32,045 bases of DNA from the IMG/VR virus record IMGVR_UViG_3300031578_000216, positions 1 through 32,045 of that record; one strand, given 5' to 3'. The position numbers and the translations under genes were made by a program. The stretch is from a virus. This document shows positions 9,037-31,910 of the stretch, one piece after another. The notes beneath the pieces are model-generated. The model was not told the DNA's origin and searched no databases. It was given only the letters and a program-made list of their open reading frames with translations. Every line of letters begins with the position of its first letter. Positions within the stretch are counted from its first letter, which is position 1.

Positions 9037-9037
9037 T

Positions 9038-12409: not shown

Positions 12410-12410
12410 A

Positions 12411-14030: not shown

Positions 14031-14031
14031 A

Positions 14032-16387: not shown

Positions 16388-16390
16388 TAA

Positions 16391-17377: not shown

Positions 17378-17394
17378 ATTAAAGGAGGCTAAAA
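17374..17394 (+). promoter_or_regulatory. Strong ribosome binding leader, copy 2
   Basis: Exact repeat of the 20-nt leader found before the tube gene. It starts inside the tube stop region and places AAGGAGG 7 nt before the ATG at 17395. It ensures high expression of the chaperone. Confidence 0.7.
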
Positions 17395-17990: not shown

Positions 17991-17991
17991 A

Positions 17992-18771: not shown

Positions 18772-19553
18772 TGGTAATGAAAATAGAAAACTATGAGGGA
18801 ACTGCAAGCACATTTACATTTCCAAATAATCCAAATACATTTGATGATGCGACAGCTTCTGATTATACTATAACAAATTTTCCTTATCAAAGGAGACATC
18901 ACTTTGTAAGTGGAGGGGGAGTGCCACCTAAAACTATAATCTTGACTGGGCATTTCTATGGAACAGACAAGAATACAAATTACAGGACCTTGTCTGGACA
19001 TTTTATGGAGAATTACAAACTGAAAAAGCTTTACTTTGATTCTGATAGGTTTTATCTTGGTTTTGGAAAGCTGATCAAGAAAACACATTCAGGGGGAAGA
19101 ACAAATTTCTTAGATTATGTTGCTACTTTCGAGACAATTGTAGGGGTTCTTTTTGATAATACTTTGCAGACTCATACAGATGGAGGAGCAGAAAAAACTA
19201 ACTCTGGAAATGTAACTACTTTCATAGAACAAATTTCTGGAACAGTAACTAGTGGAGCTGCTAATATAGTAATTACAGATAGTCTTGGAAATCAAATTAC
19301 AATTCCTGCAGCGAGTTTGACTACAGGCCAGGCAGTGATAATAAAATTTGTGAGTATGGTTGATTCTGGAAAAGGTATTTATGTGACTGAATATAATTAT
19401 ACTACAGTTGCAGGAAATCAAATAAAGACAGTCAGGACTACAACAGGATTTGGAATGATCCAATTGGCTGCAGCTGCTACAACCGCAACAATTACAGTCA
19501 CTAATCTTAATGCAGGGTACTTAATTAAATTAAGAAATGCTTACAGTGCATAA
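18771..19553 (+). CDS. Distal tail (Dit)-like protein
   Basis: 260 residues from the ATG overlapping the tape measure stop; an ATG at 18777 is also possible. The N-terminal 125 residues match a Dit/ORF19.1-like pattern: YTITNFPYQRRHHFV, PPKTIILTGHFYG, then a helix (NYRTLSGHFMENYKLKKLYFDSDRFYLGFG) and DYVATFETIVG. The C-terminal 130 residues form a second beta domain (GNVTTFIEQISGTVTSGAANIVI), an insertion typical of evolved Dit proteins. It would cap the tube and connect to the hub encoded next. Confidence 0.7.
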   Translation: MVMKIENYEGTASTFTFPNNPNTFDDATASDYTITNFPYQRRHHFVSGGGVPPKTIILTGHFYGTDKNTNYRTLSGHFMENYKLKKLYFDSDRFYLGFGKLIKKTHSGGRTNFLDYVATFETIVGVLFDNTLQTHTDGGAEKTNSGNVTTFIEQISGTVTSGAANIVITDSLGNQITIPAASLTTGQAVIIKFVSMVDSGKGIYVTEYNYTTVAGNQIKTVRTTTGFGMIQLAAAATTATITVTNLNAGYLIKLRNAYSA

Positions 19554-19571
19554 ATAGTATAAATAATATAA

Positions 19572-21959: not shown

Positions 21960-22162
21960 CACAAGAATTGCGTGGAGGAAAGATAAAGAAGATTGCTGAA
22001 AACGAGAAAGGGATTTCAATAACTGTCGAGAAGGAAGTGAGGATGAGCAAGGACTTTCTCAAGATGAGGCACAGGATCCTTAAGGAAGGCCTGGAAACAA
22101 TCAATGAGGAGATAGCAAGAATAGAAGAAGTAGCAAAGAAAATAAATCTCACATTAGATTAG
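21956..22162 (+). CDS. Small coiled-coil protein after the tail hub
   Basis: 68 residues starting inside the hub stop codon (ATGA). A beta hairpin (KIKKIAENEKGISITVEKEVRM) is followed by one long helix (SKDFLKMRHRILKEGLETINEEIARIEEVAKKI). Small helical proteins in this place are common at the end of tail clusters. I cannot assign a function; it may pair with the coiled coil ending the hub protein. Confidence 0.65.
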   Translation: MTQELRGGKIKKIAENEKGISITVEKEVRMSKDFLKMRHRILKEGLETINEEIARIEEVAKKINLTLD

Positions 22163-22165
22163 CAA

Positions 22166-22196
22166 CTTTTAAAAGCAAGTCAATCCTTTTAAAAAA
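22166..22196 (+). promoter_or_regulatory. TATA-like promoter for leaderless membrane gene
   Basis: The box cttttaaaa (22166-22174) is centred 27 nt before the ATG at 22197. No Shine-Dalgarno is present, so the mRNA probably begins at the start codon. This would separate the membrane genes from the tail transcript. Confidence 0.5.
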
Positions 22197-22460
22197 ATGG
22201 AAAAGAAAATCATAGTTACAATAATCTTGCTGGTTCTTTTGCTCTTTTCAGTATGGATAATCTTGAAGAATGGAGAAAACCAATTCAACAAGGGAGCAGA
22301 AGATTACAAGCAAAGGATGATTAAATATGTAAAGTATAATTCTGAAAATTGTTTTCCAATTCTTTTCTCTGGACTTGATGAAGAGATTTATTTGGTAGAC
22401 ATGAGATGTTATGAGAAACTTTTAAATAGTAATTGGTATTATAAAACAAATGGAAGATAG
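22197..22460 (+). CDS. Single-pass small membrane protein, twin A
   Basis: 87 residues. Residues 5-22 form one membrane segment; the rest is probably outside. Two cysteines lie in ENCFPILFSGLDEEIYLVDMRC. The pattern CxPI, then an acidic Ile/Leu strand, then VD/VN and CY is shared with the next gene, so the two look like duplicates. Position after the tail genes and next to a holin-like gene suggests a membrane or lysis role, for example spanin-like, but this is inference. It overlaps the next gene by 11 nt. Confidence 0.6.
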   Translation: MEKKIIVTIILLVLLLFSVWIILKNGENQFNKGAEDYKQRMIKYVKYNSENCFPILFSGLDEEIYLVDMRCYEKLLNSNWYYKTNGR

Positions 22461-22680
22461 AAACAAAATCTTAATCCTTGCAATAATCATTGCAGTAATA
22501 TTAGTTCTTGGAGGTTTATTTTTAACATATAAAACAGCTTATCAAAAAGGATCTGAAAATCAATTTCAACTATTAGTTACTTATTTAGTTCAATCAGCAG
22601 CGGATTGCAGGCCAATTACAATTCAATTAAATGAAGGGGATATCCAATTGGTTAATCCTGCTTGTTATATAGGAGAATAA
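22450..22680 (+). CDS. Single-pass small membrane protein, twin B
   Basis: 76 residues with a membrane segment at about 7-27 and an external part ending ADCRPITIQLNEGDIQLVNPACYIGE. The two cysteines and surrounding strand match twin A (22197-22460). Start ATG lies inside the previous gene. No known family recognised. The duplication suggests that the two proteins form a pair in the membrane. Confidence 0.6.
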   Translation: MEDRNKILILAIIIAVILVLGGLFLTYKTAYQKGSENQFQLLVTYLVQSAADCRPITIQLNEGDIQLVNPACYIGE

Positions 22681-22719
22681 AATTACAAATATTCTTATCT
22701 TAAAAAAATTGGAGGAAAA

Positions 22720-22986
22720 ATGGTTTTGAAAGAAATTTTAGCTTTGGTAGGATTTCCAGTACTTAGAAGCGTAGCCGGTTGGGCAGAGAATGCACTTAAA
22801 GACAACAAAGTAGAATCATTCGAATGGAAGCAACTTGGAGAGACAGTTTTAAGAGTTGGATTCATTGGAGTTGCAACTTACTTTGGATTGAATGAATTTG
22901 GTCTTGATGTGAGTGCCCTTGGAGCTGGTGCGGGTGCAGTTGTATTGGATATAATTTTATCAGCAATAAAGAAAAAGAAGAAGTAA
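22720..22986 (+). CDS. Holin-like small membrane protein
   Basis: 88 residues with GGAGG 8 nt upstream. An amphipathic N-terminal region (ILALVGFPVLRSVAGWAENAL) is followed by two hydrophobic segments (about 46-58, LRVGFIGVATYFG, and 64-81, LDVSALGAGAGAVVLDIIL) and a C-terminal IKKKKK. Small size, two membrane spans and a lysine tail fit holins. Similar proteins occur after tail genes in archaeal viruses and proviruses as far as I know. No endolysin is visible beside it, so lysis remains a guess. Confidence 0.55.
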   Translation: MVLKEILALVGFPVLRSVAGWAENALKDNKVESFEWKQLGETVLRVGFIGVATYFGLNEFGLDVSALGAGAGAVVLDIILSAIKKKKK

Positions 22987-23288
22987 TCATGCTCAAGAAA
23001 GTTGGGCAGATTTTCAAGGTTTTGTGTCAAGATACTTGGTCTGCCACTTTCTTTTAATGTATTAACTCAAAAGTAGTTTATTAATCTTTTTGTTATTTAA
23101 AGTAAGGAAAATATTGGATGTCTGGGCAGAATTATATATATTATAATTAATACCCCTAACTGAAACATATAGTTTGTATCAAAACAATTACTTTTTTAAA
23201 GCGAGAAAGCCTGATTATTCTAATTAAAATGCAAATCATTCTCTTAGAGCGGAGGCGCCTAAGCTTATACAATTAACGGAGGTAAAAA
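22987..23288 (+). other. Non-coding gap with a long hairpin and promoter
   Basis: 302 nt without a credible ORF. It begins with a long hairpin at 22995-23053: aagaaagt pairs with actttctt, and ggcaga with tctgcc, separated by a 2-nt bulge, with caag/cttg inside. The rest is AT-rich. A palindromic stretch, attata-N5-tataat (23131-23147), resembles a poor operator. The box tttttaaa (23193-23200) predicts a start near 23223, giving a leader of about 66 nt to the next gene, with CGGAGGT at 23277-23283. Confidence 0.55.
22995..23053 (+). terminator. Long imperfect hairpin after holin-like gene
   Basis: Outer stem of 8 bp (22995-23002 with 23046-23053), 2-nt bulge, inner stem of 6 bp (23005-23010 with 23040-23045), and an apical caag/cttg stem (23015-23018 with 23035-23038). 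It lies 9 nt after a stop codon. The T-run that follows is only four bases long. It may stabilise the 3' end of the membrane-gene mRNA or be a processing site rather than terminate. Confidence 0.5.
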
Positions 23289-23888
23289 ATGGTAGAAAAA
23301 ACAAACAGTCAAGTGTGGCTTGCAGCAGCATTAATTTCAGTAGTTGTAATAGCTTGTTTTCTTGTAGCAGGGGGAAACAAAGTAAGTACAGATGATGTGA
23401 AAAATATTGTAGTAGCAGAAATGGCTAAGTTGAATGTTCCAACAGCGCAAGAAATTGCAGATTTAGTTGTTATTCCTGAAATTGAATTTCCAGAATATGA
23501 TTTTAGTGGAGATTATGTCTTAACAAAAGCTGACTACGAAAAAATCTTACAAGAAGATAAGGCTGAAATCTTAGTTTTGGAAGAAATTGATTCAAGAGAT
23601 TTCAAGAAAGCTTTATTTGCTGCTTTAGTTGATTATAATGAATCTATTGAAAGTTACAAACATATCACAGAAATTGTAGTTAAAGATATAGAAATTGTTA
23701 TAGATGATGAAGAAGCAACTATTACAGTAGATTTGAAAGTTTATTACTATGTGGATGGTGATGAAGATGAAGACTTCAAAGCAAGATTCAAAGAGATTAC
23801 ATTTGATGTAACTAAATTAGTAGTAGAAGATAACTTTGAAGATGCTGAAGTAGACTTTGGAAATTTAGTAATAAATAAAGTTTACTAA
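23289..23888 (+). CDS. Membrane-anchored acidic protein of unknown function
   Basis: 199 residues with CGGAGGT 5-6 nt upstream. Residues 10-28 form one membrane segment followed by GGNKVSTDDVKNIVVAEMAKLNVPTAQEIADL, then a proline-rich spacer (PEIEFPEYDF). The C-terminal 100 residues are strongly acidic and beta-rich (VVKDIEIVIDDEEATITVDLKVYYYVDGDEDEDF). The acidic composition could mean calcium binding or a haloadapted external domain. It has its own promoter and terminator, so it is transcribed alone. I do not recognise it. Confidence 0.65.
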   Translation: MVEKTNSQVWLAAALISVVVIACFLVAGGNKVSTDDVKNIVVAEMAKLNVPTAQEIADLVVIPEIEFPEYDFSGDYVLTKADYEKILQEDKAEILVLEEIDSRDFKKALFAALVDYNESIESYKHITEIVVKDIEIVIDDEEATITVDLKVYYYVDGDEDEDFKARFKEITFDVTKLVVEDNFEDAEVDFGNLVINKVY

Positions 23889-23897
23889 TTCAATCAA

Positions 23898-23944
23898 TTT
23901 TTTATTTTTTTTATTTTTTGTTTTATTTAGGTGCGCGGGCGCAC
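23898..23944 (+). terminator. T-runs followed by GC-rich hairpin
   Basis: Long T-runs start 10 nt after the stop at 23888. Next comes gtgcg (23931-23935), loop cggg, cgcac (23940-23944), a striking GC-rich stem in an AT-rich setting. Termination of the 23289 transcript is the likely role. Confidence 0.6.
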
Positions 23945-24144
23945 TTTATTTTGGGCTAACTAATAGTCCAATTACTTATTTTAAACGCAGTGTGAGGCTC
24001 CTGTGAGGCACTTTTTTCTTAGTTTATCGTCGGAAAAGTACTATTGTTCTAATTAGTACAATTGTTACAATTTGTTACATTCCAAAAGAATTAAATACAT
24101 TAAATGTGTAACTATAGAGTGGGGTTCAACTAAATCTTAACAGA

Positions 24145-24228
24145 TTTGATTGTGTTCATGCCCCCACACTTTTCTAGAAAGTTTTTTAAAGCATATTTTG
24201 CTGGTATAATTCCATGAACATAATCAAA
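24145..24228. repeat. 16-bp inverted repeat around a promoter
   Basis: tttgattgtgttcatg (24145-24160) is the inverse complement of catgaacataatcaaa (24213-24228) except for one position that gives a G-U pair in RNA. The 52 nt between contain the box tttttaaa and a 15/18 match to the operator. The right arm coincides with the predicted transcription start and the ATG at 24214. The left arm holds the mirror-image ATG on the opposite strand. Confidence 0.6.
24183..24211 (+). promoter_or_regulatory. TATA box plus degenerate operator (copy 1 of 4)
   Basis: The box tttttaaa (24183-24190) is followed by a site (24194-24211) matching GATTATACTGGTATAATT at 15 of 18 positions; the right half is exact. 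Spacing between box and site is the same as in the other three copies. The predicted start falls at 24213-24214, the A of an ATG. The left half-site mismatches would weaken binding by a dimeric repressor. Confidence 0.55.
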
Positions 24229-24442
24229 GAACAAAATTTGGTCGGTCCGTACAACCAAATAGAATATGTCTCAATAGAGCTCGAGGGATTAAAAACCAAG
24301 TGAAAAGCTAAGGCACGACTTGAGGGGTTGAGAAGTTTGGGTAGATCGTTAGTAGACTCAACAGGGGAAACTTCGGTGTCGAACCTAAATTTAAAATTGG
24401 GAGTGGAAAGCTTTTAGTGTTTTTTATATTATCCTAAAAGTT
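24213..24442 (+). ncRNA. Putative operator-controlled structured RNA
   Basis: Predicted to run from the promoter at 24183-24211 to the T-run at 24419-24425. Helices: atttggt/accaaat (24236-24242 with 24254-24260); gttgag (24327-24332) with ctcaac (24357-24362); aagttt (24333-24338) with aaactt (24368-24373), which crosses the previous helix as a pseudoknot; and agcttttag with ctaaaagtt around the T-run (24409-24442). The segment 24304-24418 has higher G+C than its flanks and no ORF. No known RNA family fits. Function unknown; an antirepressor, antisense or packaging RNA is possible. Confidence 0.4.
24214..24303 (+). CDS. 29-residue leaderless peptide
   Basis: The ORF starts at the predicted transcription start, 27 nt after the TATA-box centre, just like the other leaderless genes here. 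It reads MNIIKEQNLVGPYNQIEYVS and then IELEGLKTK. The length is short enough to arise by chance, and a 7-bp stem (atttggt 24236-24242 with accaaat 24254-24260) lies inside it. It may be a real regulatory peptide or just the 5' part of a structured RNA. No homologue is recognised. Confidence 0.35.
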   Translation: MNIIKEQNLVGPYNQIEYVSIELEGLKTK

Positions 24443-24510
24443 AAGTTTGAACCAATAATCAGTTAGAAATCCGTTCAAGGAAGAAAATAGTAAGAAATAA
24501 AAAAAATATA

Positions 24511-24741
24511 ATGAAAACAATTAAAAAAATATCAAAGAGGGCAGAGGATTTAAGTCCAGAAGAATCAGAAAGAATCAGGAGAGATCTTACAAAGAATGCA
24601 AAGGAAGTGAAAACCCAGATGACTTTAAAAGAGATCAGTAAATTGAAAAAGCAAGGGATTGTATTTGGACCAAGAGGGGTTGTAATTGAAGGGGAAAACA
24701 AGATCAAACTTGGAGAAGGAATTGGATATAGATACAAATAG
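24511..24741 (+). CDS. Small basic hypothetical protein
   Basis: 76 residues, helical in the first half (ISKRAEDLSPEESERIRRDLTKNAKEVKTQMTLKEISKLKKQG) with a short beta ending (IVFGPRGVVIEGENKIKLGEGIGYRY). The composition suggests nucleic-acid binding. No ribosome site is convincing; the 70 nt upstream are A-rich. First gene of the early block. No family recognised. Confidence 0.55.
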   Translation: MKTIKKISKRAEDLSPEESERIRRDLTKNAKEVKTQMTLKEISKLKKQGIVFGPRGVVIEGENKIKLGEGIGYRYK

Positions 24742-24746
24742 TAAAT

Positions 24747-24775
24747 TTTAAATAAGTTTGTTGGTTGGTTAGATC
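24747..24775 (+). promoter_or_regulatory. TATA-like promoter for leaderless gene 24776
   Basis: The box tttaaata (24747-24754) is centred 26 nt before the ATG at 24776 and no Shine-Dalgarno lies between. This promoter lacks the operator, so it may be constitutive. Confidence 0.5.
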
Positions 24776-25009
24776 ATGAAAGAAAAAGAAAAAATAGTAA
24801 GAAAGACACTCGATTTACTAATGGAAAATGTAGAAAATTTTGAAGATTTATTAAATTTAAAATTTACAATACAGGATTATTTAGATGAAGGATATAAAGT
24901 ATTTGATTATGATATAAAATATAAAAGGTTAGTTATAGATTTCTATGAGAAAAAGAGGGTTGAAGAAATAAAAAAAAGAGAAAAATTAATGATTTCTGGA
25001 AAAAATTAA
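24776..25009 (+). CDS. Small helical hypothetical protein
   Basis: 77 residues, charged and mainly helical (EKIVRKTLDLLMENVENFEDLLNLKFTIQDYLDEG), with a short strand (YKRLVIDFYEKKR) and a lysine-rich tail. Probably leaderless. The helix pattern would suit a dimerising regulator or an inhibitor of a host protein, but nothing specific can be read from it. Confidence 0.55.
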   Translation: MKEKEKIVRKTLDLLMENVENFEDLLNLKFTIQDYLDEGYKVFDYDIKYKRLVIDFYEKKRVEEIKKREKLMISGKN

Positions 25010-25075
25010 AATATTAAAAATTTAATTCTGCTGTAACTTGTGAGTGAAAATCTGGTTCTTGTGGAAAATGAAATA

Positions 25076-25110
25076 TTTATAAAGCAGATTATACTGGTAT
25101 AATTAGGAGG
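25076..25110 (+). promoter_or_regulatory. Promoter with perfect operator (copy 2 of 4)
   Basis: The box tttataaa (25076-25083) is followed by GATTATACTGGTATAATT at 25087-25104. The inner 16 bp form a perfect dyad: ATTATAC, TG, GTATAAT. The predicted start (near 25106) lies at the end of the operator, right at AGGAGG (25105-25110). The mRNA would begin with its ribosome binding site. A protein bound here would block polymerase. Confidence 0.7.
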
Positions 25111-25117
25111 ATTCAAA

Positions 25118-25300
25118 ATGACAAAACAAAAAGCAATGGGTTTAAAGGAAAGAGCAAAACAATTGAAATCAGCAATTGAGGATTTTAATAAGATTGAAGG
25201 ATTTAGTGCAGAAGTTAAAAAGAAGTATGAGTCTCAATTGAAAGAAGTTGAGAAAGAGATTGAGAAAGACAAACAAAAATTACAAGGAGGTAAAAAGTAA
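25118..25300 (+). CDS. 60-residue coiled-coil protein under operator control
   Basis: 60 residues, almost entirely helical and lysine-rich (GLKERAKQLKSAIEDFNKIEGFSAEVKKKYESQLKEVEKEIEKDK). AGGAGG lies 7 nt upstream. It is the first gene after operator copy 2 and is followed 1 nt later by another small gene, so the two form one early unit. Function unknown. Confidence 0.6.
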   Translation: MTKQKAMGLKERAKQLKSAIEDFNKIEGFSAEVKKKYESQLKEVEKEIEKDKQKLQGGKK

Positions 25301-25301
25301 A

Positions 25302-25574
25302 ATGGAAACAAGGAAAGAATTTGATTGTCCAAGACGAGATGGAACAAAAGCAAAATTTGTTTTTGTGAAACCTGAAGGAAGTGTTTGGCATTGGGATTTA
25401 CCAAATCACTTAAGAGAATCATTTCCAGGACATGTAGCAAGTTTGCCTTTGCCTGATGTTAATTTAGACAAAGCAAAAGATTTGAAAACTTGCTTGGATT
25501 TGATTGGAAAAGCAAGAGGACAAGATTGGGTTGGGCAAGTCGTAGTTGATTTGTTAAAACCAATTCCTCAATAA
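25302..25574 (+). CDS. Early hypothetical protein
   Basis: 90 residues from the ATG at 25302; AAGGAGG at 25284-25290 supports this start over an in-frame one at 25248 inside the previous gene. The product mixes strands and helices (TKAKFVFVKPEGSVWHWDLPNHLRESFPG) with one cysteine pair (CPRRDG and LKTCLDLIG). No family recognised. It is transcribed with 25118-25300 and ends before an intrinsic-type terminator. Confidence 0.6.
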   Translation: METRKEFDCPRRDGTKAKFVFVKPEGSVWHWDLPNHLRESFPGHVASLPLPDVNLDKAKDLKTCLDLIGKARGQDWVGQVVVDLLKPIPQ

Positions 25575-25588
25575 TTTAAATTTCACAG

Positions 25589-25609
25589 CAGGGAGAAATC
25601 CCTGTTTTT
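25589..25609 (+). terminator. Intrinsic-type terminator with GAAA tetraloop
   Basis: A perfect 6-bp stem, caggga (25589-25594) with tccctg (25599-25604), closed by a GNRA loop (gaaa) and followed by ttttt. It looks like a bacterial factor-independent terminator, and the T-run would also serve archaeal polymerase. It ends the operator-controlled pair of genes. Confidence 0.75.
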
Positions 25610-25621
25610 ATAATAAATAAA

Positions 25622-25738
25622 ATGAGTGAAAATCAAAAAGAATGGGAAGCATGCAAGAAATGTAAGAGGCCAAAGAAAGTTGGAAAATCTTGCGTTTGTG
25701 AGAAAGAAGGATCTCCCAAAGAAGAAGAAGATGAGTGA
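25622..25738 (+). CDS. 38-residue zinc-ribbon peptide
   Basis: A short ORF whose stop overlaps the next start. It has CKKC at residues 11-14 and CVC at 24-26, enough to hold one zinc ion, followed by an acidic tail (EEEDE). Many such zinc knuckles occur in this early block. Support rests on the cysteine pattern and the tight overlap with its neighbour. Confidence 0.45.
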   Translation: MSENQKEWEACKKCKRPKKVGKSCVCEKEGSPKEEEDE

Positions 25739-26132
25739 ACATAAAAAACACAGGATGCAAGAGACCAGTTTAATCGCACATGAGAACATCAAACCAAAGT
25801 TAGGAGAAAGACAGGCAATGGTTTTAAAGGCAATTTATGAATTGGGAATTTTATTTGGAGATGCAACAGACTCAGAGGTAATGAGTCACTTAATTAAATT
25901 TGATCCAAACTATGTAAGGCCAAGAAGATACGAGCTTGTAAACAAATTCAAGTTTGTGGCTTTTTCACAGCAAAGAACATGCAAAATTACAGGAGAAACC
26001 TGCATGGCTTGGAAAATTTTACAAGGAGGTATATATGAAATTGAGAAAATGCCCAAAGTGCAAGAAGATCAAACCAATGACGAAGCACTCGATTCTGGGG
26101 AATCATCAGCCACCATTCAAGAAAATGTGTAG
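25731..26132 (+). CDS. Winged-helix DNA-binding protein
   Basis: 133 residues from the ATG at 25731; an upstream in-frame ATG at 25626 would overlap the zinc-ribbon gene. Residues about 20-90 give a winged-helix pattern found in phages: GERQAMVLKAIYELG, DATDSEVMSHL, VRPRRYELVNKFKFVAF, then TCKITGETCMAWKI as the wing with a Cys pair. The acidic C-terminus runs 98 nt into the next gene. A transcription or replication regulator is likely; it is a candidate to bind the 18-bp operator. Confidence 0.65.
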   Translation: MSEHKKHRMQETSLIAHENIKPKLGERQAMVLKAIYELGILFGDATDSEVMSHLIKFDPNYVRPRRYELVNKFKFVAFSQQRTCKITGETCMAWKILQGGIYEIEKMPKVQEDQTNDEALDSGESSATIQENV

Positions 26133-26241
26133 AGAGTGTCATGATAAAGAACATGGAATTGTATCAAATGTAATAAAGAGACAAATGAGAAAATTTAAAA
26201 AATATCAACCAGGAACTAAACGAATGCATAAGAAAAAATGA
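26035..26241 (+). CDS. Small zinc protein, HNH-like
   Basis: 68 residues from the ATG at 26035, which has AAGGAGGT 5 nt upstream and lies inside the previous gene in another frame. Two zinc pairs are visible: CPKC (residues 6-9) and CREC with a following H (residues 32-36). The pattern CPKCKK, KHSILGNHQPPFKKMCRECHD recalls minimal HNH or McrA-type zinc modules. A complete catalytic site cannot be claimed. The C-terminus is very basic. Confidence 0.6.
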   Translation: MKLRKCPKCKKIKPMTKHSILGNHQPPFKKMCRECHDKEHGIVSNVIKRQMRKFKKYQPGTKRMHKKK

Positions 26242-26534
26242 AAATAACAATAATCTTCCTAATCGTTGGAATGTTTGTTTTTATGGGTGGAATATATCTG
26301 CATGAGCAAGTCCATGTTGAGATTTACAAAAGTTATGGAATTGAAAGTCATGTAGAGTACCTCTCTCATTTTCCAAAAGTTGTGACAATAGCAGAAGAGT
26401 ATTGCCCAACAGAGGCTTGTGAATCTCAGCATAATCTTAATGAGATAGTATCATACAACCTTAATATTTTGTTTGGGATCCTTCTTTTTGGGTTTGCATG
26501 TGTAATATATATCTTGGAGGAAAAGAATGAATAG
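26238..26534 (+). CDS. Membrane protein with HExxH metalloprotease motif
   Basis: 98 residues starting inside the previous stop (ATGA). Two membrane segments, at about residues 3-20 and 78-92. HEQVH at residues 22-26, right after the first segment, matches the HExxH zinc-protease motif. NLNEIVSYNLN in the second half could supply a third ligand. Two cysteines lie in EYCPTEAC. It is shorter than characterised membrane metalloproteases, so it may be a minimal protease or a binding-only relative. Target unknown; host envelope modification is one option. Confidence 0.5.
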   Translation: MKITIIFLIVGMFVFMGGIYLHEQVHVEIYKSYGIESHVEYLSHFPKVVTIAEEYCPTEACESQHNLNEIVSYNLNILFGILLFGFACVIYILEEKNE

Positions 26535-26539
26535 AAGCT

Positions 26540-26574
26540 TTTTTAAGGGGGATTATACTGGTATAATTGGGAGG
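26540..26574 (+). promoter_or_regulatory. Promoter with perfect operator (copy 3 of 4)
   Basis: The box tttttaa (26540-26546) is followed by GATTATACTGGTATAATT at 26551-26568, identical to copy 2 over 18 bp. GGGAGG at 26569-26574 starts directly after it. The start predicted from the box is near 26570. The gene's ATG is at 26589. Confidence 0.7.
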
Positions 26575-26588
26575 ATTAAAATTATAAG

Positions 26589-26792
26589 ATGATCTCAAAA
26601 AGACAAGTAGAAATGTTAAAGGAGAATATTGATAAACTGTCAAGATCTGATGAGCAATTTATTTTTATTATTTTCAAAAATCCGAATGGAACAGATAATA
26701 TAACAGAATATTGTTATAATCTTCCATTAGATAAATTAAGACATTATTTCATGGAAGCACTAAAGAGAGGAAAATTAAAAGATGGAAATTAA
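26589..26792 (+). CDS. Operator-controlled hypothetical protein
   Basis: 67 residues, charged and mainly helical (ISKRQVEMLKENIDKLSRSDEQFIFIIFKNPNGTDNITEYCYN). GGGAGG lies 14 nt upstream, a long gap, so translation may be weak. It is the first gene after operator copy 3. No family recognised. Confidence 0.55.
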   Translation: MISKRQVEMLKENIDKLSRSDEQFIFIIFKNPNGTDNITEYCYNLPLDKLRHYFMEALKRGKLKDGN

Positions 26793-26796
26793 TAGT

Positions 26797-26876
26797 TATC
26801 TTAAGATACACTGGGGGGTGGATTCTTACAAATGTTTGAATCCTCCTGCCCTCCAATTAAAACAGGAGGTATATAA
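26797..26876 (+). promoter_or_regulatory. Two-state leader hiding or exposing a ribosome site
   Basis: The leader of the annealing-protein gene. Stem A: ggattc (26820-26825) with gaatcc (26838-26843), extended past a T-T mismatch by G-C pairs. Stem B: cctcctg (26842-26848) with caggagg (26863-26869), which covers the Shine-Dalgarno. The two share bases 26842-26846 and cannot form together. A perfect 12-bp palindrome, tatcttaagata (26797-26808), lies at the predicted start. An upstream attaaaag (26774-26781) is the likely TATA box. Confidence 0.6.
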
Positions 26877-27434
26877 ATGGGAAAAATAGGAAAAATCATA
26901 AAATTTGATGGAAAGAGTATTTGGTTTATTGAACAAGGTCAAACAGGAGAAGGAAAATATCCTCTTGCAGATTGGATAAAACCAGAATACGTAAAACTTG
27001 GAGAGGCAGAGATTACAGTAGATTCTAATAATGTTATTACATTTGTTGCAATGACTGAAGATATGGCAAACCAAAATTCAAAAGAAAAGAAATCAACTAC
27101 TAAAAAACCAAAGGGATGGGAAGATGATATAGTGTCTTTTGAAGTTTTACTTACTGCAACACACAAGAAGTCAGGTGGAAATTTCTCAATAAAGACAGAG
27201 TGTATAACAGTTGATTTAGATAAAAAGTATGCTTTGTTTAAGGCAACTCTTTCAACAAGTGGTAAAGATGGAAATGTGGCATTGAGTGAATTTGATGGAC
27301 ATGGAGATGCAACAATCGAGAATGTAACTGGTGATTTTATTAAGCCACACTTTATTCGAATGGCTGAAACTCGAGCTATTGTAAGAGCACTTAGATGGTA
27401 TACAAACAACGGCTGCGCCGAAGAAGAGAAATGA
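26877..27434 (+). CDS. Candidate single-strand annealing/recombination protein
   Basis: 185 residues with CAGGAGGT 6 nt upstream. An N-terminal OB-like beta domain (residues 1-60: GKIIKFDGKSIWFIEQ, WIKPEYVKLGEAEITVD) is joined by a lysine-rich linker to a core (about 80-185) ending FIRMAETRAIVRALRWYTNNGCAEEEK. The MAETRAxxRALR motif is the hallmark of Rad52/ERF-type annealing proteins. It would anneal single strands during replication and recombination. The gene is preceded by a possible translational switch and overlaps the next gene by 4 nt. Confidence 0.6.
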   Translation: MGKIGKIIKFDGKSIWFIEQGQTGEGKYPLADWIKPEYVKLGEAEITVDSNNVITFVAMTEDMANQNSKEKKSTTKKPKGWEDDIVSFEVLLTATHKKSGGNFSIKTECITVDLDKKYALFKATLSTSGKDGNVALSEFDGHGDATIENVTGDFIKPHFIRMAETRAIVRALRWYTNNGCAEEEK

Positions 27435-27697
27435 GAATCTTTTGCACAAGAATTATAAGAGAAAAGACTTACAGGGAACTTCTTAAATTCAAGAGTGAAG
27501 TCGAGGAAATTCTTAAAAGGAAATTGCCTGCAGTCAAAGATGCAATTTTGAAGAACAAGAACATTACACTGAGTAGAGGATGTGTTTTGATAAACAGCAA
27601 TATTAGTGATTCAAAGATTGATTACAAAAGCAAAGAAGCAATTAAAGCATTTTACAATAGCATAATTCAAGGTTGTGTGTTTATGAAAAAGAAATAA
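27431..27697 (+). CDS. Hypothetical protein following the annealing gene
   Basis: 88 residues from the ATG at 27431, which overlaps the stop of the annealing gene as ATGA. An upstream in-frame start at 27395 would lie inside that gene and is less likely. It is basic and mixed (MRIFCTRIIREKTYRELLKFKSEVEEILKRKL, GCVLINSNISDSKIDYKSKEAIKAF). Translation is coupled to the annealing protein, so it may be a recombination accessory. No family recognised. Confidence 0.6.
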   Translation: MRIFCTRIIREKTYRELLKFKSEVEEILKRKLPAVKDAILKNKNITLSRGCVLINSNISDSKIDYKSKEAIKAFYNSIIQGCVFMKKK

Positions 27698-27741
27698 TTT
27701 ATTTATTATTTTTTTATTTTTACTCTTTCAAATGCGAGAGT
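27698..27741 (+). terminator. T-run then small hairpin
   Basis: T-rich stretch at 27698-27721 followed by actct (27722-27726) pairing with agagt (27737-27741). Same arrangement as after the genes ending at 6039 and 23888. It ends the recombination unit. Confidence 0.5.
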
Positions 27742-27759
27742 CAAAAGAAGCAAGACTAA

Positions 27760-27999
27760 ATGGAGAAAAGAACAATGGAAAACAAAGAAATAACAAACGA
27801 AGAAAGAGCATTACTTATTTTAAAGGATAAGTGTGAGCTTGTGATAAACAAGACAGAAAAGCCTAACTCTTATGAGTTTGGTAAGCCAGGAAATAGATTT
27901 AAGATTTATTTTTCAGATGTCGAAGATCTACAAATACAATTAAAAGGAATTGTAGATGCAGGGTTGGTATTAGAAGAGGATTTTAAAAATGGAAAATGA
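27760..27999 (+). CDS. Hypothetical acidic early protein
   Basis: 79 residues; an ATG at 27775 is an alternative start. Helical beginning (NKEITNEERALLILKDKCELVINK) and a second half with GKPGNRFKIYFSDVEDLQIQLKGIVDAG. It overlaps the next small ORF by 11 nt. No function assigned. Confidence 0.55.
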   Translation: MEKRTMENKEITNEERALLILKDKCELVINKTEKPNSYEFGKPGNRFKIYFSDVEDLQIQLKGIVDAGLVLEEDFKNGK

Positions 28000-28084
28000 A
28001 ACAGTAGAACAATTGAAAAAAGAAATCAGAGAAGCAGAAATTGTTAGTAGAGCAAGAGAAAATGGTAAACCTGAGGAAAGATAA
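27989..28084 (+). CDS. 31-residue helical peptide
   Basis: Short ORF overlapping both neighbours. It is a single charged helix (TVEQLKKEIREAEIVSRARE). Support is only the tight gene overlap and codon use like its neighbours. Confidence 0.3.
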   Translation: MENETVEQLKKEIREAEIVSRARENGKPEER

Positions 28085-28214
28085 AGTCTGTTACAATCTC
28101 TGGCTAACAAAACAAGAAGAGAAGATTTTATTAGAGAGTATGAAATCACTTCCTTCAATAGCTTGGACAATTGTAAGAAAAGCAAATAGACGTGGAGACT
28201 TTGAGAAGAGATAA
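28062..28214 (+). CDS. 50-residue hypothetical protein
   Basis: ORF starting inside the previous small ORF and ending 1 nt before the HNH gene. It contains the segment DKVCYNLWLTKQEEKILLESMKSLPSIAWTIVRKANRRGD, which has the periodicity of a helix-turn-helix. No ribosome site is strong. It fills a stretch that would otherwise be empty, which supports it. Confidence 0.4.
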   Translation: MVNLRKDKVCYNLWLTKQEEKILLESMKSLPSIAWTIVRKANRRGDFEKR

Positions 28215-28215
28215 A

Positions 28216-28725
28216 ATGCCAAAAGGAATTTATAAAAGAATAAAACCAACTTGGAGTAAAGGAACAAAAGGTATTGTGAAACCAAATTCCGGAAGTTTTA
28301 AGAAAGGACATAAAATTGGTTTCAAAAAAGGATATATGCCATGGAACAAAGGGAAAACAAGAAAAGAGGATCAAAGAATCCCTCAATCTTGGTTGGGAAA
28401 AAGAAGAGAAGAGATTTGTGGAAAAAAGAATCCTAATTGGAGTGGGGGGTTTAGTAAATTAGATAAATTAATAAGAAGATTACCAGAGTATTTTCTTTGG
28501 AGAAGTAGAGTTTTTGAAAGAGATAATTGGACTTGTCAAACTTGTCAAAAAAGAGGAGTTTATCTTGAAGCACATCATAAAAAAGAATTTATAAAGATAA
28601 TTCGTGAAAATAATATAAAATCTACAAGGGAAGCAATAAAATGTAAGGAATTTTGGGATATTGGAAATGGGGTTGCTTTATGTAAGGATTGTCATAATTT
28701 AACAAAGAGAGGCAAGGGAACATGA
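28216..28725 (+). CDS. HNH homing endonuclease with NUMOD3-like repeats
   Basis: 169 residues from the ATG at 28216, 1 nt after the previous stop. Residues 1-70 carry NUMOD3-like motifs (SGSFKKGHKIGFKKGYMPWNKGK), which bind DNA. The C-terminal HNH domain reads RSRVFERDNWTCQTCQKRGVYLEAHHKKEF, with CQTC as a zinc pair, HH as catalytic, an N-containing stretch (IGNGVALCKDCHNLTK) and a closing CKDCH. This is a free-standing homing endonuclease, common in tailed viruses. It can spread its own gene into related genomes. Confidence 0.85.
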   Translation: MPKGIYKRIKPTWSKGTKGIVKPNSGSFKKGHKIGFKKGYMPWNKGKTRKEDQRIPQSWLGKRREEICGKKNPNWSGGFSKLDKLIRRLPEYFLWRSRVFERDNWTCQTCQKRGVYLEAHHKKEFIKIIRENNIKSTREAIKCKEFWDIGNGVALCKDCHNLTKRGKGT

Positions 28726-28859
28726 GCCCGACACAATCAATGCAGAGAAGAAAAGAAGAAGCAAAAGGATCTACAAAAGGGTACACTGATTATTCAGAGT
28801 ATGAAGCAGGAAAGCCAAGAGACAAAAAACAAAAGAAATTAAAGGAGTATTTTAAATGA
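28722..28859 (+). CDS. 45-residue basic peptide
   Basis: Short ORF overlapping the HNH stop as ATGA and the following start. It is hydrophilic and lysine-rich (MQRRKEEAKGSTKGYTDYSEYEAGKPRDKKQKKLKEYF). Coupling on both sides supports expression. No family recognised. Confidence 0.45.
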   Translation: MSPTQSMQRRKEEAKGSTKGYTDYSEYEAGKPRDKKQKKLKEYFK

Positions 28860-29176
28860 CAATTCAACTACTAATGAAAAGGGCAATCCAGATCATCAAA
28901 AAAAAGCAGTATAAAATAATCAGCGAGAGAATGATTGTTGTTAAGGATCAAGATAAAAAATATACAGTCACTTATCAAACAAAGCCAGGAAGAACAATCC
29001 AAACTTGCACGTGTACGAATTATGTTAGGCATTGCAAACAATCAATTAGATGCGTGCACATGATCGTAACTGAATGGATCTTAATGTTCAATCAAATAAA
29101 TTCAGGAGGTAAAAATGAAACAAATATTAAAAGCAGAAATCAAATGCCAGAAGAGGAAGACATCAGGAAAGATTGA
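28856..29176 (+). CDS. SWIM zinc-finger protein
   Basis: 106 residues. A beta stretch (YKIISERMIVVKDQDKKYTVTYQTKPG) leads into TCTCTNYVRHCKQSIRCVHM: Cys51, Cys53, Cys66 and His68 form CxC-x12-CxH, the SWIM zinc-finger signature. SWIM fingers bind DNA or proteins and occur in recombination partners (Sws1/Rad51 paralogues). The last 20 residues run over the start of the next small gene. Proximity to the annealing protein and resolvase-like nuclease suggests a recombination role. Confidence 0.75.
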   Translation: MTIQLLMKRAIQIIKKKQYKIISERMIVVKDQDKKYTVTYQTKPGRTIQTCTCTNYVRHCKQSIRCVHMIVTEWILMFNQINSGGKNETNIKSRNQMPEEEDIRKD

Positions 29177-29243
29177 GATCACAAGAAAGGAACTCAAGAA
29201 GTATGGAAACAAGAAGTTGATTGTGAAAATTTACGAAAAATAG
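29115..29243 (+). CDS. 42-residue basic peptide with strong ribosome site
   Basis: The ORF has AGGAGGT 5 nt upstream (29104-29110) and lies partly inside the SWIM gene in another frame. It reads MKQILKAEIKCQKRKTSGK and ends LKKYGNKKLIVKIYEK, a beta-hairpin-like arrangement resembling half of a swapped-hairpin DNA-binding fold. The strong ribosome site makes it more than chance. It is the last gene before the structured RNA block. Confidence 0.5.
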   Translation: MKQILKAEIKCQKRKTSGKIEITRKELKKYGNKKLIVKIYEK

Positions 29244-29567
29244 TCACAAAGTGGGGATGGAGTGACAAGGCTGTTTTATCACTGCTTGTTTGATACCGAG
29301 GCCCCACACTAAGCAGGAGTAGTCTAATGGTAAAATCTGAGCTAGTCGCTTGGGGTTCCAGGTTCGATTCCTGGCTCTTGCATTGCACAAAGAAGCTTGG
29401 CAACTATCCAGTCTTTGTGCAGGAAGTTGTAACTCTCAGTATGGTTAAACATATTGGGAGTTTTGGTGTGTATACCCTCCTGTAAAGTCAATGGAGGCAG
29501 TCCTAAGGGGATGGGAATTAAAAGACCAACAATAAAACCTGACAGCCAGGAAAGACTGGCATGAATA
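29244..29567 (+). ncRNA. Block of hairpins around a tRNA-like gene
   Basis: 324 nt without ORF. Stems in order: gtgggg (29251-29256) with ccccac (29302-29307), enclosing agtga/tcact and a crossing caag/cttg; the tRNA-like cloverleaf 29313-29382; a perfect 9-bp stem, tgcacaaag (29384-29392) with ctttgtgca (29413-29421); a 12-bp stem (29432-29443 with 29450-29461) with two G-U pairs; cctcc (29476-29480) with ggagg (29493-29497); and gccag (29545-29549) with ctggc (29556-29560). Almost every segment is paired, which points to a functional RNA rather than a spacer. No known family fits. Confidence 0.5.
29313..29382 (+). tRNA. tRNA-like gene, anticodon uncertain (AGT by geometry)
   Basis: Acceptor gcaggag pairs with ctcttgc (one G-T). 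The T arm is perfect: ccagg, ttcgatt, cctgg. D-loop AATGGTA carries the conserved GG. Anticodon stem ctgag/cttgg has two wobbles around the loop ctagtcg, which puts T at 33 and AGT at 34-36. The D-stem gtct/aaat is poor (C-A mismatch), position 26 is missing and position 37 is a pyrimidine. Discriminator is A; CCA is not encoded. It may be a decayed tRNA, an unusual functional tRNA or a structural mimic. Confidence 0.55.
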
Positions 29568-29906
29568 ATGAAAAAAGAATTTACAAAAATATGCCATAAT
29601 GAATTATGTAAGAAAGAATTTAAAACAAGAGATAAAAGAAGAGTTAATTGTTCAAGACAATGCAGCAGAGAATCAGAAAAACAATATAAAAAAATATATG
29701 CTGAAAGTGAAAAAGGAAGAGAAGTTCAAAAAAAATGTAGGCAAAAGAAAAAACAAAAACATGAACATTTGAGATGGGTACATGGAAATCCAGTGTATGG
29801 GGTTCATGTTTGTAAACATTGTGGAGAGGAATATTGGGGTAACGAGGGATATTGTGATTTTAAAAAAATTAAAGAAATGGAGAAGAAATGCCAACCCAAA
29901 CAGTAA
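29568..29906 (+). CDS. Basic protein with two zinc-binding pairs
   Basis: 112 residues. The N-terminus has ICHNELCKKEFKTRDKRRVNCSRQCSRE, a four-cysteine zinc module. A helical basic middle region (QKKCRQKKKQKHEHLRWVHG) is followed by VCKHCGEEYWGNEGYC, a second zinc module. Such double modules are typical of small phage DNA- or RNA-binding proteins, sometimes with HNH relatives. An ATG at 29561 in another frame overlaps the start. No catalytic motif seen. Confidence 0.6.
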   Translation: MKKEFTKICHNELCKKEFKTRDKRRVNCSRQCSRESEKQYKKIYAESEKGREVQKKCRQKKKQKHEHLRWVHGNPVYGVHVCKHCGEEYWGNEGYCDFKKIKEMEKKCQPKQ

Positions 29907-30055
29907 GACAAGGAGTTTTTTTTATTTTCATATTCGTAGAACTATTTGTAGGATCATACTTTTTAAAATTTTCAATGTTTGAGAATTTGATTATTATAAT
30001 TTTTGCAGCAATAGTCATGAAATTGACAGACATCGAAGAGGCTATAAGATGTTAG
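29888..30055 (+). CDS. 55-residue membrane protein
   Basis: Short ORF overlapping its neighbours at both ends. Two hydrophobic stretches are visible, QGVFFIFIFVELFVGSYFL and NLIIIIFAAIVM, so it probably spans the membrane twice. GGAG lies 6-9 nt upstream. Function unknown; superinfection exclusion or a membrane regulator is possible. Confidence 0.5.
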   Translation: MPTQTVRQGVFFIFIFVELFVGSYFLKFSMFENLIIIIFAAIVMKLTDIEEAIRC

Positions 30056-30258
30056 GATATAAAAAATGCCCAGAGTGGCTTAAAAGAGCATACAAAAAAG
30101 CAGTAAAATTTACTTGTGAAGATTGTGAAGAAGTTTTCCAAGAGAAAGAATTGGAGATTCATCGAATAATTCCTGGATACAAAGGAGGAACATACAGGCC
30201 AGGGAATGTTAAGATTTTATGTAAAGAGTGTCATAAGAGGTATGCAGAAGAATGGTAG
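30049..30258 (+). CDS. Small HNH endonuclease-like protein
   Basis: 69 residues. CEDC (residues 23-26), EIHRIIPGYKGGTYRPGNVKILCKECHKR: the EIHRI histidine, the N in GNVKILC and the CKECH zinc pair follow the HNH order closely. It is about the minimum length for the fold. It overlaps the previous stop by 7 nt and the next start by 7 nt. HNH proteins in viruses act as packaging nicking enzymes or homing endonucleases; position among early genes favours the second. Confidence 0.7.
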   Translation: MLGYKKCPEWLKRAYKKAVKFTCEDCEEVFQEKELEIHRIIPGYKGGTYRPGNVKILCKECHKRYAEEW

Positions 30259-30470
30259 ATAATTGTGAAAATTGTGGAAAAGAAATAGATGTTCCTGAAA
30301 CAGCATTGAAACTTTGTGATAATTGTTTTAATGAGGAATGTGAATGTAGACATATAAGAGCAAAGCATGTTGATAATGGGAGTTGCATACATGAATTTAG
30401 TTTAAATCATAAAACTAAAAGAGGGGAGTTTTGTAAATGTAAAAAGTTTAAATTAAAAAATGATAAATAA
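30252..30470 (+). CDS. Zinc-ribbon protein with several cysteine pairs
   Basis: 72 residues with nine cysteines and two or three histidines: CENC (5-8), CDNC (22-25), CEC, CRH, SCIHEF and FCKCKKF. Probably two zinc sites. The pattern RAKHVDNGSCIHEF recalls small zinc-binding proteins of phages and archaea that bind nucleic acids or other proteins. Overlaps both neighbours. Function unknown. Confidence 0.6.
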   Translation: MVDNCENCGKEIDVPETALKLCDNCFNEECECRHIRAKHVDNGSCIHEFSLNHKTKRGEFCKCKKFKLKNDK

Positions 30471-30717
30471 AATAGAAATGGAATGGAAGAAAAAGAGAGG
30501 CAAAAGTAGGTGTGTACTTTGCGGGCATTGTGTAGTTGCTTGTCCTAATGATGCTCTTAGATTTAACAGAAGTAGTGATGATCTAACTTTTGATGATGAG
30601 ATAATTATCAATCATTCAAAATGTACTGGATGCGGAAAATGTACTGAAGCTTGTCCAGAGATTGGAGGAATGATTAAATTAAAAAATGGCAAAAACAAAA
30701 CAAAAACCAAAAATTGA
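30460..30717 (+). CDS. 2[4Fe-4S] ferredoxin-like protein
   Basis: 85 residues; an ATG at 30478 is also possible. Cys18, 21, 24 and 28 followed by Pro29, and Cys55, 58, 61 and 65 followed by Pro66, give two complete C-x2-C-x2-C-x3-C-P motifs. Both clusters are intact, so it should bind two [4Fe-4S] centres and carry electrons. N- and C-terminal extensions are lysine-rich. Ferredoxins are rare in viruses; it may supply a viral or host redox enzyme, though no partner is visible here. Overlaps both neighbours. Confidence 0.8.
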   Translation: MINKIEMEWKKKRGKSRCVLCGHCVVACPNDALRFNRSSDDLTFDDEIIINHSKCTGCGKCTEACPEIGGMIKLKNGKNKTKTKN

Positions 30718-30943
30718 AAAATGTTTTTGTGGGCACCTAAATGCTCATACTAGAGAATGTAAAAGAAAAAATACTTTTTTAAGATTTTATGAAGTTAGAA
30801 AAAAAAGATGGAAAGAAAGAGTAAAGAATCATCAATGTGGGGATTGTGGAAAAAAAGTAGAACCAAAAATTATATATCCCTCAAGATGTAAATGTTGTAA
30901 TGATAAAAACAATGGACAAAAAAACACAAGGAAAAAAGAATAA
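30686..30943 (+). CDS. Small zinc-ribbon basic protein
   Basis: 85 residues. CFCGHLNAHTREC (13-25) and CGDCGKKVEPKIIYPSRCKCC (51-71) form two zinc modules. Very basic elsewhere (FLRFYEVRKKRWKERVKNHQ). It overlaps the ferredoxin gene by 32 nt in another frame and the nuclease gene by 44 nt. Nucleic-acid binding is likely. No enzyme motif seen. Confidence 0.55.
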   Translation: MAKTKQKPKIEKCFCGHLNAHTRECKRKNTFLRFYEVRKKRWKERVKNHQCGDCGKKVEPKIIYPSRCKCCNDKNNGQKNTRKKE

Positions 30944-31388
30944 AGCAAGTGGAGCTCGGTTTGAATTGAAAGTTAGAAAGGATCTTGAATCTAAAGGTTG
31001 GATTGTTTCTAAGTGGATGAATAATGTTGAGTTTGATAAAATATTTGTAAATACAACTTGTCCAGAGATAGGTTATTTTTATGATACGAAAGGAAACCGT
31101 AAGCCAATATCTGGTAAACTAATCCCAGCAAAGCACAAGTTTAGAGGACCAGGAATACCAATGGCCATAGGAACAGGTTTTCCAGACTTTATTGTTTTTA
31201 GTCCAGCAGATTCGTGCAGACCTAAAATTATTGGAGTAGAAGTAAAATCAAATGGATATTTAGACAAAGTAGAAAAAGAGAAATGCAAATGGTTATTAGA
31301 TAATAATGTTTTCAGTAAAATAATTATAGCAAGTAAGTCTAAGAAGAGAGGAGAAATTGTATATAAAGAAATTGCTAAAAACCAATAA
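30900..31388 (+). CDS. PD-(D/E)XK nuclease, Holliday junction resolvase-like
   Basis: 162 residues from the ATG at 30900; an ATG at 30912 is as plausible. Motifs in order: GARFELKVRKDLESKGWIVSKW (helix with the motif I Glu, then a strand), TGFPDFIVFSP (motif II Asp), IIGVEVKSNGYLDKVEKEKCKWL (motif III E-V-K, then a helix). This is the order in archaeal Hjc-like resolvases and VRR-NUC proteins. An insertion of about 45 residues separates motifs I and II. It could resolve branched DNA before packaging and acts well with the annealing protein. Confidence 0.75.
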   Translation: MIKTMDKKTQGKKNKASGARFELKVRKDLESKGWIVSKWMNNVEFDKIFVNTTCPEIGYFYDTKGNRKPISGKLIPAKHKFRGPGIPMAIGTGFPDFIVFSPADSCRPKIIGVEVKSNGYLDKVEKEKCKWLLDNNVFSKIIIASKSKKRGEIVYKEIAKNQ

Positions 31389-31389
31389 G

Positions 31390-31419
31390 TTTAAATAGTG
31401 ATTATACTGCTATAATTAT
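31390..31419 (+). promoter_or_regulatory. Promoter with operator, leaderless winged-helix gene (copy 4 of 4)
   Basis: The box tttaaata (31390-31397) is centred 26 nt before the ATG at 31420. The operator at 31400-31417 is GATTATACTGCTATAATT, one change from the consensus that breaks the dyad at one position. The start codon follows 2 nt after it, so the operator covers the promoter-start interval. This is the likely autoregulatory site. Confidence 0.7.
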
Positions 31420-31611
31420 ATGGTTGTTGAGAGAGTTGATATTAAAGAGGCTACATTGAAAAAAGTTAAAGATTTCTTGAAAAAACAAAAAAAGCCAGTG
31501 TATAAATCTGATATTGCAAGAAAGGCAAAAGTTGATTATAATTCTTTGAATTTTGCATTAAAGCAAATGAAAATTAAAACAGATGAAAAGGGGAGGATAA
31601 AATTATGTTAG
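31420..31611 (+). CDS. Small winged-helix regulator, candidate operator-binding protein
   Basis: 63 residues, leaderless. The helix-turn-helix reads LKKVKDFLKKQKKPVYKSDIARKAKVDYNSLNFALKQMK, with KVDYNSLNFALKQM as the recognition helix, followed by a wing (IKTDEKGRIKLC). It is the first gene after an operator copy. Phage repressors commonly control their own promoter, so it is the first candidate for binding the 18-bp dyad. Its small size would need dimer formation. Confidence 0.65.
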   Translation: MVVERVDIKEATLKKVKDFLKKQKKPVYKSDIARKAKVDYNSLNFALKQMKIKTDEKGRIKLC

Positions 31612-31910
31612 AAATAATTAACCAAAGATACATGAAATTTCTTTTTGAAATTGCAAAGAAGCCAAAAAACATTTCTTGGCTTGCAAAAAAAGGGGACTTA
31701 ACTTTGAGTGTAGCATCTACTTTGATTTCAAGGTGGGAAAGAGAAGGAGTTATTTCAAAGAAAAAATCAGATGGGGGACGTGGAAAAGAAATAATTATTT
31801 ATATGACAGAATATGGAAAAGATCAAGTAAAATTATTGAGACAGATGTATAAGAATCATAAGGATAAAAAGGTAAATGTTCAAAACATAGTTGAAGGGAG
31901 GGAACAATGA
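31605..31910 (+). CDS. MarR-like winged-helix regulator
   Basis: 101 residues. INQRYMKFLFEIAKKPKNISWLAKKGDLTLSVASTLISRWEREGVISKKKSDGGRGKEIIIYMTEYGKDQVKLLRQMY matches a MarR/ArsR-type fold: helix, helix-turn-helix with SVASTLISRWEREG as the recognition helix, then a beta-wing (GRGKEIIIYMT) and a C-terminal helix. It overlaps the 31420 gene by 7 nt, so both are made from the same operator-controlled mRNA. It is a second candidate for the operator-binding factor. Confidence 0.7.
   Translation: MLEIINQRYMKFLFEIAKKPKNISWLAKKGDLTLSVASTLISRWEREGVISKKKSDGGRGKEIIIYMTEYGKDQVKLLRQMYKNHKDKKVNVQNIVEGREQ

Follow-up and report, generated by a model that had tools for sequence, protein, structure and literature searches.

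A symmetric sequence between TATA box and predicted start as a probable operator of a self-regulated winged-helix regulator in an uncultured tailed virus

IMG/VR record IMGVR_UViG_3300031578_000216 is a 32 kb stretch of DNA (32,045 nucleotides, hereafter the window) from an uncultured virus, and it encodes a caudovirus prohead protease and a tail-tube protein. It also carries copies of the 18-mer GATTATACTGGTATAATT, each placed after a TATA-like box, and one of these stands at a small operon for two candidate regulators. Quite probably, in our view, AWTATAC-NN-GTATAWT is an operator bound by a dimeric winged-helix regulator that the virus encodes, that is self-regulated and that acts at early promoters. 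The features concerned are listed below (SD, Shine–Dalgarno sequence; ORF, open reading frame; wHTH, winged helix-turn-helix).

24182–24189, +: TATA-like box TTTTTTAA (sequence, spacing)
24194–24211, +: weak copy 4 of the putative operator, three changes, at a possible first early promoter
25076–25083, +: TATA box TTTATAAA of early promoter 1 (sequence, spacing)
25087–25104, +: copy 1 of the putative operator, perfect, ending at the SD (match; aligned promoter in the related contig G008, like architecture in G018 and G024)
25105–25110, +: AGGAGG SD and predicted transcript start (sequence; start deduced from TATA spacing)
25118–25300, +: small ORF of 60 amino acids, family matches all sub-threshold
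25734–26132, +: ORF of phrog_1123 (unknown function), a third, weaker candidate regulator (homologues in G008 and G024)
26539–26546, +: TATA-like box TTTTTTAA of early promoter 2 (sequence, spacing)
26551–26568, +: copy 2 of the putative operator, perfect, ending at GGGAGG
26589–26792, +: small ORF of 67 amino acids
31390–31397, +: TATA box TTTAAATA of the regulator operon (sequence, spacing)
31400–31417, +: copy 3 of the putative operator, one change, at the candidate auto-promoter (homologous site in 13 of 17 contigs)
31420–31611, +: winged-helix protein of 63 amino acids, leaderless, candidate reader of the site (AlphaFold wHTH; TFIIE_beta below cut-off)
31605–31910, +: MarR-like wHTH protein of 101 amino acids, overlapping downstream gene, alternative or partner reader (profile, fold)

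The four copies reported in a preliminary description of the window were all recovered, on the + strand: GATTATACTGGTATAATT is exact at 25087 and 26551, and the copies at 31400 and 24194 carry one and three mismatches, respectively. At 25088 and 26552 the inner 16 bp form the perfect 7+2+7 inverted repeat, ATTATAC-TG-GTATAAT, that had been described (seven of seven arm pairs at both exact copies). With up to three mismatches the 18-mer was found four times, compared with a mean of 0.06 and a maximum of 1 in 100 dinucleotide shuffles, and a TATA-like box precedes each copy, which bears out the earlier argument that the arrangement is not due to chance. Transcription is predicted to start at about 24211/12, 25105/06, 26568/69 and 31419/20, 26–27 nt from the TATA box centre. 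The copies at 25087 and 26551 abut AGGAGG and GGGAGG respectively, and that at 31400 ends 2 nt before the leaderless ATG at 31420. Thus the two proposed SD junctions and one of the two proposed leaderless starts stand; the other, at 24194, is weak, as the ATG that follows opens a 29-codon ORF only, without support. The 16-bp dyad alone, at up to three mismatches, is unremarkable in this AT-rich window (seven found, 4.16 expected), and what counts as evidence is the pair of exact copies together with the near copy, the geometry and the sites in relatives.

On its sequence, the copy at 24194 is a plausible fourth, weak operator or first early promoter; its distance from copy 1 (893) resembles that between the first and second sites of G024 (844). 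A structured RNA downstream of 24194 was considered and rejected (fold no better than shuffles, z −0.49; no Rfam match there). Hairpins with GTGGGG...CCCCAC stems are predicted just upstream of the 24194 site (24119–24167) and at 29251–29307, just upstream of a tRNA gene (29313–29382) that was called Thr with anticodon AGT. Such a tRNA is unusual for archaea, and the gene may be degenerate or misread.

Relatives were gathered with the 26877, 31605, 31420 and capsid proteins and with an operator-plus-SD pattern, and counts were made on 17 non-redundant contigs (412,768 bases, 413 kb). Near-duplicates were left out (G007, G019, G025, G031, G037 and G038), with overlaps of at least 99% checked for four pairs and G031 and G037 judged from an identical promoter and protein; G007 is a duplicate in part only. 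Also outside the 17 are G029 and G034, which start at the gene, and G022, which shows no 31420 gene. The 37-kb contig G003 repeats the window (identical to 10850–29337, 99.9% identity across 800–10849), extends further upstream, contains terminase and portal genes and stops before 31400. G018 corresponds to L066 plus L067, G010 to L045, G024 to L082 and G033 to L093. G024 was retrieved with the operator-like pattern and its SD sites are therefore selected. Exact matches to the 18-mer elsewhere in the viral contig collection were confined, besides G003, to one in each of three contigs; with no TATA box or SD in place, these were taken as chance.

Scoring the 17 contigs against the generalised form AWTATACNNGTATAWT located 21 sites that differ from it at one position or none. 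Eighteen lie between, or overlap, the TATA box and the start, and three are upstream of the TATA box (G018 22790, G010 13234 and G036 15439); 17 were automatically flagged as upstream of an ORF, and the remaining four run into an SD. Upstream of the 31420 orthologues, a site with at most two mismatches was present in 13 of 17 cases, compared with 9 of 595 other ORF upstreams (Fisher 5e-18), and letter shuffles of the orthologue upstreams gave 52 in 3400. The best match at the orthologues had one mismatch in eight, two in five, three in two and four in two, and the control matches had none in four cases, one in five and two in none. These controls are mechanical ORFs of at least 60 amino acids from ATG on the + strand of oriented contigs, not proven genes, and the nine that matched are window 25118 and 26589, two in G018, one in G008, the protease genes of G018, G010 and G024, and one ORF of G036. 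Nine of the 12 contigs fetched after the consensus had been written carried the site (3.5e-13). An automatic search for TATA plus SD in 11 contigs returned eight places, six of them with the operator at 0–1 mismatches and two without it (G008 9626, inside a methylase ORF, and G006 2121). The site at 31420, earlier proposed to mark an autoregulated gene, is thus the best-conserved part of the system, and by sequence this gene remains the candidate for autoregulation.

The spacing was compared at 22 sites, namely all of the 21 except G036 15439, together with two that have two mismatches each, window 24195 and G021 2280. From TATA start to site start there are 10–13 nt at 17 sites and 4 nt at three, and two have no preceding box. 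At the wHTH promoters the TATA centre lies 25.5–28.5 nt from the first plausible ATG in 13 of 17; the outliers are G033 (29.5), G027 and G028 (33.5) and G018, with its first ATG/GTG at 42.5.

Several relatives carry the site at more than one promoter. G008 (positions 456, 6763 and 40181) has AATATGCGTGTATATT at the promoter aligning with window 25087 (77.6% over 107 bp), AATATACACTTATATT ahead of the 31420 orthologue and AATATATCTGTATATT ahead of a further SD gene. G018 has ATTATACGTGTATATT twice, at 6914 and 9090 (a separation of 2.2 kb), in both cases with a TATA box before it and TTAGGAGGATT after it, and G024 has the site at three SD promoters (2792, 3636 and 4856), two identical to those of G018. 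G008 and G018 each contain three sites at up to one mismatch, compared with a shuffle mean of 0 (30 shuffles). Further 31420 orthologues are preceded by ATTATACTAATATAAT (G035), ATTATAGCAGTATAAT (G032), ATTATATAGGTATAAT (G026), ATTATATAACTATAAT (G021), AATATACATATATAAT (G006), ATTATATTGGTATATT (G010), AATATACCCTTATAAT (G028) and AATATATGTTTATATT (G036), and the orthologue promoters of G018 and of G024 each contain two overlapping dyads, 14 bp apart. A one-mismatch dyad was also present at the protease/capsid promoter. In G018 (22790–22805) and G010 (13234–13249) it precedes the TATA box by exactly 20 nt, and in G024 (17166–17181) it stands between TATA and ATG; the protease promoters of the window and G008 showed none. 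The dyad therefore recurs upstream of genes, as the preliminary description had expected of relatives. Diverged viruses have it at orthologous promoters, and where its letters have changed the symmetry is preserved.

From sequence, the virus is a tailed one whose host is probably a Woesearchaeota-type archaeon. An archaeal host is suggested because TATA boxes and leaderless starts fit one, and capsid relatives were found on five GTDB contigs, with metagenome-assembled genome (MAG) titles of Nanoarchaeota (one), Woesearchaeota (two), 'archaeon' (one) and WOR-3 bacterium (one). The capsid relative L072, on a 4.6-kb contig binned as WOR-3 bacterium, may reflect a binning error or a wider host range. 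In INPHARED (50,697 phage records) the capsid protein had no relatives and the 31420 protein no match, and a host search using the 31605 alignment gave no match. A search with PF00589 only found a tyrosine integrase in one of 18 records, which are possibly fragments (G036, 21309–21749, −), and none in the window or G003; therefore at least one member may be temperate.

Which protein would read the site was considered from the two genes of the regulator operon. The AlphaFold model of the 63-residue 31420 product is a wHTH domain (predicted local distance difference test score 78) with no strong match, and the protein scores 15.7 bits against Pfam TFIIE_beta (TFIIE-beta/TFE), below the cut-off of 28.1. 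For the 31605 product, a MarR match was obtained by profile against PDB (1.6e-5), the model matched ST1710 in Foldseek (5.8e-5) with the ST1710/BldR fold and a long C-terminal helix, and the Pfam MarR_2 score was 19 bits, below the cut-off of 27. The two families show no homology to each other, and the genes, which overlap in the window, are separated by about 300 nt or more in some relatives (e.g. G010, G026, G028, G030 and G036). Because the site sits at the 31420 gene, the 31420–31605 operon is favoured as the source of the reader. Covariation of the recognition helices with the operator was dropped for naming it, as the results were contradictory. G024 keeps the operator of G018 with a very different 31605 recognition helix, which counts against 31605 as sole reader, and the 31420 recognition helix is common to G026 and G027, whose dyads differ, which counts against 31420 as sole reader. 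We lean towards 31420, alone or together with 31605; 31605 alone is unlikely, and so, to the same degree, is a reader from elsewhere, for instance the 25734 product or a host factor.

We infer an early class of operons, binding by a dimer, repression rather than activation, and the start sites and reader named above. At two early operons (perhaps three), as well as at the regulator operon 31420–31910, the operator would separate the TATA box from the transcription start, and all these operons would fire first. As the regulator accumulates, its dimer would occupy about −20 to −1 and block RNA polymerase recruitment or promoter opening after TBP/TFB binding, so that the early operons are shut down and the regulator limits its own synthesis; a negative feedback circuit is suggested by the site at the regulator's own gene. 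According to PMC5569661, repressors acting by promoter occlusion make up the majority of characterised archaeal regulators, and occlusion of TBP/TFB or polymerase, plus autoregulation, is common for archaeal (viral) repressors.

Several observations weigh against this reading. Sites at several promoters were seen in the window, G008, G018 and G024 only, and not in other contigs, and no site with up to one mismatch occurs outside the wHTH promoter in 11 of the 17 contigs, many of which are fragments. Four of the 17 orthologous promoters are without the motif (G005, G020, G030 and G033), and in G027 the match is equivocal. In G030 (AAGGATATAATTATATCCTT, 22191–22206) and G033 (ATACTTGTAATTACAAGTAT) this position of the 31420-orthologue promoter is taken by a different perfect palindrome; no second copy of the G030 palindrome core was found in its contig. 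The SD promoters of G026, G027, G030 and G033 picked by symmetry were ruled out as motif carriers (4–6 mismatches), and G026 has the motif at its wHTH promoter yet not at these. Site G036 15439 is upstream of the TATA box, with a poor match only at the next SD promoter, and G007 carries in its own part an extra one-mismatch site (12252) without a clear promoter. The copy at 24194 is weak, 0.87 sites with up to two mismatches to AWTATACNNGTATAWT being expected per shuffled window (30 shuffles), and the contradictory recognition helices of G018 and G024, and of G026 and G027, count on the same side. The regulon with several promoters is accordingly stated for four viruses, and the site at the regulator's own promoter for a larger number. 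The repressor regulon with graded sites of the preliminary description is thus supported by the recurrence at relatives' promoters and the lack of enrichment in four host-type genomes (below), and is limited in breadth by the second early site in four viruses only and the four promoters without motif; the weak end of its graded series, with three mismatches, is plausible only. As a separate observation, an SD promoter at G026 14587 (oriented) has a different dyad, ACTATAGTCTATAGT, between TATA and AGGAGG.

Other explanations of the dyad were weighed against an operator of a virus repressor. It could be a positive element, an extended early-promoter sequence read by an activator, since it is common to strong-looking SD promoters and stands in an activator-like place in G018 and G010. 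However, the 18 sites that lie between or overlap TATA and start are where a bound protein would block polymerase, and other promoters of these viruses are without the dyad; we therefore judge an activator improbable. Use by the virus of a host transcription factor has a precedent, host regulators of viral transcription in archaea being described in PMC5569661. Conservation is strongest at the virus wHTH gene, however, and the four archaeal genomes holding capsid relatives, which may not be those of the true host, showed no enrichment (16 matches compared with 18 for a reversed-pattern control), making a host factor highly unlikely.

It is very improbable that the sites have no regulatory function and arose in this AT-rich genome by chance or by duplication of a promoter. 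One early promoter of the window may indeed be a copy of the other, as the two have 42 bp in common at 86% identity, but the recurrence of symmetric dyads at the orthologous promoters of viruses that have diverged counts against this reading. Finally, all four window copies contain TGnTATAAT, so that TGGTATAAT could be a bacterial extended −10 promoter of a virus infecting bacteria, with which the one WOR-3 title among five would agree. Transcripts would then begin within the SD or beyond the leaderless ATG. The relatives' sites in the spacing comparison keep the dyad and not TGnTATAAT, the TATA boxes stand at a near-fixed distance and four of the five genome matches are titled archaeal; a bacterial promoter is scarcely credible.

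Returning to the repressor, an early/late dual role is possible but speculative. In its full form, which we regard as rather improbable, one virus-encoded regulator would be an early/late switch in viruses of DPANN archaea. Bound between TATA and start, it would repress the early promoters and its own gene, and from the site 20 nt upstream of TATA, as in G018 and G010, it would activate the protease–capsid promoter, with operator specificity diversifying like immunity groups (the G030 and G033 palindromes).

Some features of the relatives' genomes were noted apart from the operator. The capsid gene of G010 (14318–15406) has one in-frame stop at a Gly invariant in eight aligned relatives, which may be a sequencing error, a pseudogene or recoding. 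The portal genes of G010 (about 11800–12490) and G022 have in-frame insertions at the same place (residues about 491–510), and that of G022 may be ADP-ribosyltransferase-like. G010 also has an inverted repeat (2–143/39224–39365, 95.8% over 142 bp) near both ends of its 39.5-kb contig.

The arrangement resembles repressor systems with self-regulation that have been described before in other archaeal viruses. The nearest published case (PMC11065993) comes from Sulfolobales viruses, whose early regulons are predicted to serve anti-defence and to be under a wHTH repressor, Aca8, itself a prediction. In each of those viruses a regulatory sequence of its own surrounds the strong TATA promoter of several small early genes, and in the window, G008, G018 and G024 one regulatory sequence is likewise common to several genes. 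Every aca8 gene is preceded by its virus's own regulatory sequence, so that a very small wHTH gene carries it in both systems (55 amino acids there, 63 here; in our set the 13 of 17 noted above), and the flanking sequence varies between viruses. The present system differs in virus class, tailed and probably of Woesearchaeota, and in that the shared part is a symmetric dyad between TATA and start. The 31420 protein showed no homology to the protein taken as Aca8, ORF55 of SIRV1 variant XX, a stand-in chosen by length (hhalign probability 0.3%, 3 columns), and nine proteins matched PADLOC only at E 0.004 or worse.

Similarly, F55 of SSV1 has sites at several early promoters and its own, overlapping the start site and the TFB-recognition element (BRE), as PMC5569661 has it; F55 is a ribbon-helix-helix protein on tandem repeats, whereas here the candidates are winged-helix proteins and the site is an inverted repeat. 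The 31605 product has the fold and long C-terminal helix of the MarR family (ST1710 and BldR), but is only 101 amino acids long, scores below the Pfam cut-off and has a recognition helix that does not vary with the operator. RepR of the haloarchaeal tailed virus phiH1 is alike by description only, as a DNA-binding repressor in an immunity-conferring region of a tailed archaeal virus (PMC6210493). Two Woesearchaeales tailed proviruses have been published (PMC11705971), in a paper whose main text lacks the words 'repressor' and 'MarR', and none of the papers listed by literature searches dealt with how viruses of this group control transcription.

If the repressor reading is true, the operator flags probably early small genes, which by the logic of PMC11065993 would be candidate anti-defence genes, and two candidate regulators are named for direct test. 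The variant palindromes at the same promoter would then form a natural series for joint change of operator and regulator.

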